Shown here in pieces: positions 2 through 26,275 of a stretch of 64,000 nt of DNA. Under the pieces are notes generated by a model. It was not told where the DNA came from and did not search any database. It saw only the letters and a program-made list of their open reading frames with translations. Numbering within the stretch: position 1 is the stretch's first letter; every line of letters begins with the position of its first letter. Both the position numbers and the translations under genes were made by a program. Source of the stretch: Candidatus Hebobacterum abditum (GTDB lineage Bacteria; Armatimonadota; Hebobacteria; Hebobacterales; Hebobacteraceae); contig JALGXW010000008.1 of assembly GCA_029821875.1 (NCBI GenBank), positions 1-64,000 of the forward strand, read 5' to 3'.

Positions 2-352
2 TGGTGGAGGCGGTGGGAATCGAACCCACGTCCGATGGACAGTCCTCGCAAGACACTACGAGCGTAGCCTGCGTTTAGCTTCGCCCGGCGCAAGCCCACA
101 GGCGGGCCTCTCGCCGGACTAGTTCGTTAGTGTTCTCCCCTCACCCCTACGAACCTCAGGGCTCTGGGCAAGCTAGCGATGTTTGCGCCCAAGCCGACCG
201 TGCTAGCCCGGTCGGGAGGACGTCGTCGCTTATTAAGCGGCGAGTGCCAGCTGTGTATCGTTGGCAGTTATAGGGTTGCGCGTTTTGACGAGATCACGCG
301 ACTCGGCTCGCGTCTTGCGGCTCCCGGCCCATCGTCGAAGCCGTTCGCCCCC
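2..352 (-). ncRNA. ssrA: tmRNA (transfer-messenger RNA, SsrA)
   Basis: tmRNA rescues stalled ribosomes and tags the unfinished protein for proteolysis. On the minus strand the 3' end reads as a tRNA-like T arm (GGGTTCGATTCCC) and an acceptor strand CGCCTCC with an encoded CCA (plus TGG at 2-4). The 5' end at 352 reads GGGGGCG, which pairs with that acceptor strand with one G-U. The conserved element GGCTTCGACG follows the 5' end. The tag frame runs from 265 down to 233: GCC AAC GAT ACA CAG CTG GCA CTC GCC GCT, then TAA TAA. It encodes ANDTQLALAA, which ends in the usual LAA degradation signal. smpB lies about 1 kb away on the same strand. Confidence 0.96.
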
Positions 353-25293: not shown

Positions 25294-25323
25294 ATTATAG
25301 CACAAATGTTTGCGTATGTGCAA
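25294..25323 (-). promoter_or_regulatory. promoter of mrfA with an inverted repeat in its spacer
   Basis: Minus-strand TTGCAC (25323-25318), 18-nt spacer, TATAAT (25299-25294). The spacer is bounded by GCACA (25300-25304) and TGTGC (25317-25321), a 5-bp inverted repeat in position to act as an operator. Confidence 0.7.
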
Positions 25324-25340
25324 CGGAGAGCTAGTAGTGC

Positions 25341-25368
25341 TTGACGTCTTCCCGCAGTGTGGTATACT
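25341..25368 (+). promoter_or_regulatory. strong sigma-70 promoter for a small RNA
   Basis: TTGACG (25341-25346), 16-nt spacer, TATACT (25363-25368). It points away from mrfA into a 57-nt stretch that ends in an intrinsic terminator, with no open reading frame. Confidence 0.75.
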
Positions 25369-25374
25369 ATCTGT

Positions 25375-25434
25375 AATCCGGTAAGCCGGAGGTGGATGGC
25401 TTAAGCCATCGGGGCCCGCAAGGGCCCTTTTCTT
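25375..25434 (+). ncRNA. small structured RNA, probably a DUF3800-associated RNA
   Basis: Between the promoter above and an intrinsic terminator lies about 57 nt made almost entirely of three consecutive tetraloop hairpins. Stem 1 (25377-25390) is TCCGG/CCGGA with loop TAAG. Stem 2 (25395-25410) is GATGGC/GCCATC with loop TTAA. Stem 3 (25412-25427) is GGGCCC/GGGCCC with a GNRA loop GCAA, followed by TTTTCTT. The terminator ends a few nt from the stop codon of the convergent DUF3800 gene. Comparative genomics has reported a set of RNA motifs found beside DUF3800 genes; assigning this RNA to that group rests on position and size, not on a model match. Confidence 0.65.
25412..25434 (+). terminator. 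intrinsic terminator of the small RNA
   Basis: A 6-bp all-GC stem with a GCAA loop, followed directly by TTTTCTT. Confidence 0.85.
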
Positions 25435-25439
25435 ATGGC

Positions 25440-26210
25440 CTAGAGGAGCTTCTTCCCGAACAAGCGGCCCTGGTCTTGGTCGTACTTGCCGCCCAAGATC
25501 GCGACAATGCGCTGTGCGAAAGGCGGCAACTTCTTCGTCCTTAGGTCGTTCTCAAGCAATATCTCATTTCTGCTGGGGTGTGCCACCAGGTCTGCAAGCT
25601 GCAGTCCGGCTATGTTGTGTGCCTTAGGCCTTACCTTGAGTTGACGACTGGTGAGTACCTTCTGGAGGAGTTCGGGTCCGATGAAGTTTGTACCCCTGTG
25701 CCATATGCGATGGAAGGCATTCTTGAGTCGCATATCCTCCTTGCCGCCCCGCGACTCGGCCATCACGTCGCCAACGCTGTGTGTTCTGTTCAGGAAGAGG
25801 CAGAAGCGCTCGAGTAGCACCGTGAGGCAGTAGTGGTACGGATCGTACCTCCAGACTGTGTATGTCTCCTTGTGTCTCTTCTTGTCGATGCACACTGACA
25901 TCACCGTGTAGTCACACTCCTCCAGAAGAGCAAGCAGTGCCTCGTCGAACTCCGCGCGGATATCGGGATCGGCGAGACACTGAAAGGGCGGCCGTGCGTT
26001 CAACAGGTCCTTCCGATGGAACACGACATGATCATCTGGATGGGGGCGGAAGTATCGTTCCTTCAACGCCTCCATTCTTGGATGAAGCACGCTCCGCACG
26101 TATTCCAGGTCGAGGACGACTCCAGTCAGGCTGAGGAAGCGATGGTTGGGGTCGTCGGAGCTCTCAAGATCGGGGTTCCCGACCTCGTCGATGTAGATCC
26201 GGCACTTCAT
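25440..26210 (-). CDS. DUF3800 domain protein
   Basis: 256 residues. The N terminus MKCRIYIDEVGNPD matches the DUF3800 opening (YIDExG), which in this family resembles an RNase H-like strand with its first acidic residue. Further acidic residues fall in CIDKKRHKE and in GLQLADLVAHPSRNE near the C terminus. DUF3800 proteins are suspected nucleases associated with mobile or defence loci; no activity is proved. By eye, GC content is clearly lower than in flanking genes, which suggests transfer. Start ATG 26210 marks where homology begins; the open frame further upstream shadows pyrG. A small structured RNA ends next to its stop codon. Confidence 0.85.
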   Translation of the reverse strand: MKCRIYIDEVGNPDLESSDDPNHRFLSLTGVVLDLEYVRSVLHPRMEALKERYFRPHPDDHVVFHRKDLLNARPPFQCLADPDIRAEFDEALLALLEECDYTVMSVCIDKKRHKETYTVWRYDPYHYCLTVLLERFCLFLNRTHSVGDVMAESRGGKEDMRLKNAFHRIWHRGTNFIGPELLQKVLTSRQLKVRPKAHNIAGLQLADLVAHPSRNEILLENDLRTKKLPPFAQRIVAILGGKYDQDQGRLFGKKLL

Positions 26211-26275
26211 GGCTATCTGGCGATGAGGGTCCGCCGAATCCAAACGCGGTCTCCTGACGCCTGCTTCTGGTCCTG

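Follow-up and report, generated by a model that had tools for sequence, protein, structure and literature searches.

A widespread three-hairpin small RNA facing DUF3800 genes, and its possible part in a transferable RNA-protein cassette

A small structured RNA gene converges on a DUF3800 gene in the window, by which we mean the whole stretch of 64,000 nucleotides of Candidatus Hebobacterum abditum DNA that was analysed, and the same RNA accompanies the relatives of that gene. The relatives were collected by protein search alone, which returned 80 loci spread over about 20 phyla (phylum names being those of the database records), and the RNA was sought on the opposite strand in the 150 bases beyond each DUF3800 stop codon. 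Wherever the flanks were readable, at 77 related loci of about 20 phyla, it faced the stop codon without exception; it is also present in all nine relatives from the same phylum as the window. A preliminary description had suggested an RNA-protein module at this place, and the invariable linkage together with strong covariation bears this out: on comparative sequence evidence the pairing of the RNA with the DUF3800 gene is strongly supported. The toxin-antitoxin-like nature also proposed for the module is hypothetical.

Structure of the locus

The promoter, three tetraloop hairpins and terminator that had been recognised close to the DUF3800 stop codon proved to be real (Table 1). The plus strand from 25341 to 25434 reads as the promoter followed by AAUCCGGUAAGCCGGAGGUGGAUGGCUUAAGCCAUCGGGGCCCGCAAGGGCCCUUUUCUUA. 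The promoter matches the consensus at 10 of 12 positions, three promoter-like sites being observed in 1.6 kb against 0.4 expected, and A25375 is the putative start of the RNA. Fold prediction returned exactly these three hairpins at -32 kcal/mol (z -3.5, equalled by none of 200 shuffles), and the covariance model R1, built with the window sequence included, gave the window RNA 72.8 bits (E 2.8e-21). The DUF3800 stop codon lies a few bases beyond the T-tract, the two genes being convergent on opposite strands. The genes that flank the pair, that of an MrfA-like helicase and pyrG, are both read from the minus strand.

The RNA is present in a single copy in the genome, which speaks against repeat or mobile RNA copies. 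A coding leader was likewise rejected and the RNA, as first described, encodes no peptide: its sole ATG gives Met-Ala-stop and becomes AAG in many relatives, as a compensated change within the same stem, and neither this ATG nor the SD-like GGAGG of the window is conserved. A tmRNA gene lies at the window edge (2-352, minus strand; Rfam RF00023, 181.6 bits).

Table 1. Coordinates of the RNA-DUF3800 pair and associated features in the window.
Feature	Position	Strand	Remarks
RNA promoter	25341..25368	+	sigma-70-type, TTGACG-N16-TATACT, TG before -10
Three-hairpin small RNA	25375..25434	+	about 57 nt including T-tract
Hairpin 1, TCCGG-TAAG-CCGGA	25377..25390	+	paired in 99.2% of cells, 76 sequences
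Conserved AGGUGGA (linker GGUG and start of hairpin 2)	25390..25396	+	candidate protein-binding site
Hairpin 2, GATGGC-TTAA-GCCATC	25395..25410	+	paired in 98.9% of cells
Hairpin 3 and T-tract, intrinsic terminator	25411..25434	+	GGGGCCC-GCAA-GGGCCCT at 25411-25428, then TTTCTTA
DUF3800 gene	25440..26210	-	256 aa; PF12686, E 1.4e-13; stop codon 25440-25442
Promoter of MrfA-like helicase gene, outside the RNA-DUF3800 pair	25294..25322	-	divergent; TATAAT region kept in sister species
Acquired cassette	25316..26275		about 0.96 kb; extent versus empty site of sister species (L010 of G001)

Conservation of the RNA

The RNAs of the relatives carry their own promoter and terminator, the latter ending beside the DUF3800 stop codon, and 61 of 82 relatives have a -10-like box whose end lies 6 nt ahead of the invariant AA at the start. 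Two members from Bacteroidota (Runella and Porphyromonas) have in its place the box TAnnTTTG, preceded by TTTG at a distance of 19-21 bases; this is the Bacteroidetes form of promoter. Such independent, host-adapted promoters argue for real transcription of the RNA.

Covariation across homologous DUF3800 loci, to which the preliminary description had looked for confirmation, is strong. An alignment of 76 RNAs shows 99% pairing in hairpins 1 and 2, both of which RNAalifold recovers unaided. Changes on both sides were seen in three of the five pairs of hairpin 1 and three of the six pairs of hairpin 2 (for example U-A to A-U), amounting to 124 cells against 41 in shuffles, and the covariation score was 0.321 against 0.143 +/- 0.009 for shuffled and at most 0.130 for slid alignments. 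The lower figure for hairpin 3, 68% of cells, comes from its variable length, which puts the alignment out of register; every sequence has its own terminator hairpin. The linker GGUG is found in 78 of 82 RNAs. Within hairpins 1 and 2, 35 G-U pairs were counted against 2 A-C pairs, and therefore the promoter-bearing strand, that of the RNA, is the strand under selection. Weak matches to R1 (E above 1e-6, e.g. L147-L152) lay inside ordinary genes or were without context, and were taken as chance.

These features bear on several other explanations. Because the genes are convergent, readthrough of either would overlap the other, and the RNA might be an antisense regulator of the DUF3800 mRNA acting through a 3' overlap, as in type I toxin-antitoxin systems. 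We consider this very unlikely: with the end of the RNA lying roughly at the stop codon there is no designed overlap, and antisense action would not account for a GGUG shared between phyla or for a preference of G-U to A-C on one strand. Perhaps the RNA and DUF3800 are instead neighbours of unrelated roles, joined merely as cargo, and the orphan RNAs described below would agree with this; however, an unbroken linkage across about 20 phyla in many different contexts, and a similar arrangement with different RNAs in other DUF3800 subfamilies, make it extremely unlikely. The least probable reading of all is a guide steering the nuclease to its targets, like OMEGA or CRISPR RNAs. A nuclease with an adjacent small RNA in a compact acquired cassette does recall such systems, but whereas OMEGA/IS200-IS605 RNAs have a variable guide beside a conserved scaffold, this RNA has no variable segment: its 5' end is fixed at AATCC, a terminator forms its 3' end, and variation is essentially confined to the short loops. 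Sequence analysis shows an RNA gene of definite functional strand and structure that is constantly linked to DUF3800, and likewise the predicted protein fold, the transfer and the defence genes around the relatives that are described below.

RNA without an intact gene

The RNA model was also searched, without regard to the gene, in 395 genomes of the phylum of locus L062. This yielded 18 RNAs, of which 11 had an intact gene, one a frameshifted gene, one a C-terminal scrap and five no gene. Further RNAs with a broken or missing gene were found at L142, L143/L230, L225, L228 and L226, the last (at 1622-1972) having an in-frame internal DUF3800 deletion that leaves 117 aa, with residues of about 57-198 gone, beside an intact RNA. 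The genome of L226 holds a second, intact copy. Where the DUF3800 gene has gone the RNAs are largely intact, and no intact DUF3800 gene of the window subfamily was seen without its RNA. That the RNA outlives the gene and never the reverse fits an antidote role. We rejected the orphan RNAs as decisive proof of one, because the gene is about ten times larger and thus a far larger target, and ten gene-first losses in succession would arise by chance with a probability of about 0.35.

The DUF3800 protein

An AlphaFold2 model of the window protein, built with 62 relatives, reached a pLDDT of 94.9. In a fold search of the PDB the best match was RNase HII (1eke; Foldseek E 1.3e-3, prob 1.00), which aligned with the model at Z 10.3 over 171 residues and 4.3 A. 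RNase H2 and H3 came next; matches with Z below 8 were left out of the interpretation. No solved structure belongs to a sequence relative of the protein. All of 14 divergent members keep D8, E9, D159 and D207, and E152 is nearly invariant in divergent members; D8 and E9 stand at the position of the RNase HII DE pair. With an RNase H fold, DE on strand 1 and further acids, the protein is modelled as a predicted RNase HII-like nuclease, in keeping with the RNase H-like features ascribed to it at first. The literature likewise describes an RNase H fold for DUF3800, notes a 'catalytic rearrangement' (PMC10910872) and places it in some CRISPR V-A2 and VI-F loci (PMC12669027, PMC10910872).

Acquisition and gene neighbourhood

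In the sister species G001, whose helicase is 92% identical to that of the window, the helicase gene and pyrG are adjacent with 46 unrelated bp between them, and both the RNA and DUF3800 are missing. The cassette has a GC content of 56%, the helicase gene 67% and pyrG 65%, in agreement with the lower GC noted earlier for the DUF3800 gene. The best relatives of the protein, with up to 68% identity, are in other phyla, the same-phylum copies having 36-56%, and a single clade of the same-phylum copies was rejected (p-AU 0.0007, quick tree). Because the site in the sister species is empty and the protein tree rejects vertical descent, the cassette was acquired horizontally. Transposon ends were looked for, and no direct or inverted repeats of at least 7 bases were found between the flanks tested.

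To survey the neighbours we compared 66 genes adjoining DUF3800 at about 40 loci with 66 random genes from 20 regions of the same genomes. As tallied from annotation tables, at least 11 of the 66 neighbours were defence genes against 0-1 of the 66 random genes (one-sided p 0.0003 to 0.002, for 11 versus 0 or 1). Five were type III methyltransferases, and the others included type IIG and type I restriction proteins, ResIII proteins, DrmD- and DpdE-like SNF2 helicases and Cas7; PADLOC hits among the random genes numbered four and were scattered, and none of these genes belonged to a restriction-modification system. Three loci, L077, L108 and L125, share the gene order helicase or ResIII, DUF3800, RNA, methyltransferase. 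The possibility of a mobile or defence element, raised at the outset, is thus upheld by the empty site, the tree incongruence and the defence neighbours of the relatives. The window cassette itself is flanked by housekeeping genes and no Cas effector adjoins its DUF3800 gene.

Two observations on individual loci may be added. At L077, L108, L125 and L110 the cassette lies within defence-like operons of helicase/ResIII, DUF3800, RNA and DNA methyltransferase (or DUF1156), and at L059 (5116-7050) a reverse transcriptase gene is directly downstream of the RNA-DUF3800 pair.

RNAs of other DUF3800 subfamilies

RNAs beside DUF3800 genes were reportedly found through comparative genomics by Weinberg et al. 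in about 2017, with no role assigned. The preliminary description had looked to covariance models of these motifs to recognise the window RNA, and this did not succeed: cmscan against Rfam 15 gave no match of a DUF3800 family to it (E up to 5), nor did any Rfam 15 DUF3800 model match the RNAs of the relatives (E up to 10). The window RNA is a structured small RNA adjoining a DUF3800 gene and does not reach the gathering score of any listed Rfam DUF3800 family; it is an unlisted member of the class of DUF3800-associated RNAs and a new, widespread family. The 2017 paper may have drawn the same motif, with Rfam then omitting it.

Within the same phylum, Rfam DUF3800-VII, -VIII and -IX match at the same convergent, downstream position of other DUF3800 subfamilies, where several RNAs that Rfam does not list are also found. 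The facing strand had a promoter score of at least 9 at 16 of 29 other-subfamily loci against 3 of 53 control genes, and at these 29 loci it folds more stably than controls (p 6e-4). At least six other-subfamily loci (L178-L181, L186, L189) gave no sign of a convergent RNA, and therefore in some subfamilies the protein is not always dependent on one. The convergent RNA-DUF3800 arrangement is common, not universal. A GGA...UCGG hairpin occurs in 6 of 34 other DUF3800 RNAs against 1.9% in controls, a mere hint because the pattern was defined after looking. A search with R1 found no match at phage, plasmid and remote DUF3800 loci, and therefore their RNAs are different families; no relative was found among viral contigs.

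A second undescribed RNA, GGATTGGG-loop-CCCGGTCGGC with a terminator, faces DUF3800 genes at L268, L269, L271 and L177, hosted by a Paracoccus phage, Methylobacterium and Sinorhizobium plasmids and one same-phylum genome. It lies on the facing strand about 80-105 nt past the DUF3800 stop codon, and has no Rfam match at the phage and plasmid loci. More promoter-driven structured RNAs without an Rfam match converge on other subfamilies (L165, L166, L169; L167, L168, L191; L171, L172; L173, L175), for example GCAGGNCCGAACC-hairpin-GGTA...CTGC. DUF3800 is carried by the temperate-type phages of L267 (Pseudomonas phage JBD68) and L268 (Paracoccus phage Pkon1); in Pkon1 one small gene separates it from a CI-like repressor gene, a usual place of prophage accessory genes.

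Possible mode of action

Our best explanation, which we advance tentatively and at slightly less than an even chance, is an RNA-protein defence cassette in which excess RNA holds the RNase HII-like nuclease inactive until infection or stress releases it. The two would act jointly as a ribonucleoprotein. Made from a strong promoter, the RNA would exceed the product of the poorly promoted DUF3800 gene and bind the nuclease, most likely keeping it inactive (activation being less likely); infection or another stress might then halt transcription or degrade the RNA, and the freed nuclease would cut nucleic acid. Such an anti-invader device would follow the logic of type III toxin-antitoxin systems with different parts. 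A promoter score of at least 9 was found for the RNA at 36 of 44 loci and upstream of DUF3800 at 8 of 44 (10 versus 5 in the window), which suits an RNA needed in excess for restraint. We infer that the two partners bind, that the protein acts as a nuclease, that the RNA inhibits it and does not activate it, and that the pair serves in defence.

A required activating RNA would predict much of the same pattern. The RNA might be an activating cofactor or structural scaffold, the complex being active and the RNA-free protein inert, and linkage, covariation and the conserved single-stranded linker would serve this equally well. RNase H-fold enzymes having RNA partners are often activated by RNA. 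DUF3800 is also an accessory nuclease within some CRISPR loci (PMC12669027). However, the strong RNA promoter against the weak gene promoter suggests an excess of RNA that a 1:1 cofactor would not need, and largely intact RNAs persist after loss of the DUF3800 gene; we regard activation as the less likely of the two readings.

The pair has the look of a small system of two parts that can be transferred. The work adds functional strand, architecture, protein fold, transfer and context to the evidence for the class, and supplies a covariance model of an RNA family that Rfam lacks. The RNA family is compact, almost always fits whole within one kilobase, and is found in cultured hosts, and Runella zeae and Longilinea arvoryzae are among its hosts; these properties, together with an RNase HII-like protein and defence neighbours, mean that co-expression could reveal the role of the whole class. 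DUF3800 proteins and their diverse convergent RNAs might even make up one large class of anti-phage systems, so far unrecognised, in which RNA controls an RNase H2-like protein and each protein subfamily co-evolves with its own small RNA switch; the window RNA would then be a very widespread example and would found a kind of RNA-protein toxin-antitoxin system outside the recognised types. This wider proposal is possible, and we hold it as rather doubtful.

Comparison with known systems

The Rfam motifs DUF3800-I (RF02969), -VII (RF02967), -VIII (RF03075) and -IX (RF02968) are likewise short structured sRNA genes beside DUF3800, although they differ from the window RNA in sequence and architecture. 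RNase HII and RNase H2 are the nearest solved folds and share with DUF3800 the DE-G motif on the first strand and the conserved acids; the identity is about 15%, and DUF3800 has extra helices.

Type III toxin-antitoxin systems (ToxIN, CptIN, TenpIN) also pair a small RNA, apparently the more strongly expressed partner, with a predicted nuclease and are linked to phage defence. They are defined by tandem short repeats in the antitoxin RNA and by a bicistronic operon with the RNA upstream and a terminator between (PMC5086642). Where their antitoxin has tandem pseudoknot repeats, the window RNA is one set of three different hairpins without repeats, and it has its own promoter and converges on DUF3800 from the opposite strand. 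A ToxN/Kid-like fold is absent from the match list of the model, in which RNase HII is best, a result that does not exclude other folds. By definition, then, the module is not a type III system. The TPR-DUF3800 accessory proteins of Cas12a2 and type VI-F loci differ from the window protein, which is DUF3800 alone, and they likewise place an RNase H-fold DUF3800 in a defence setting (PMC10910872, PMC12669027).
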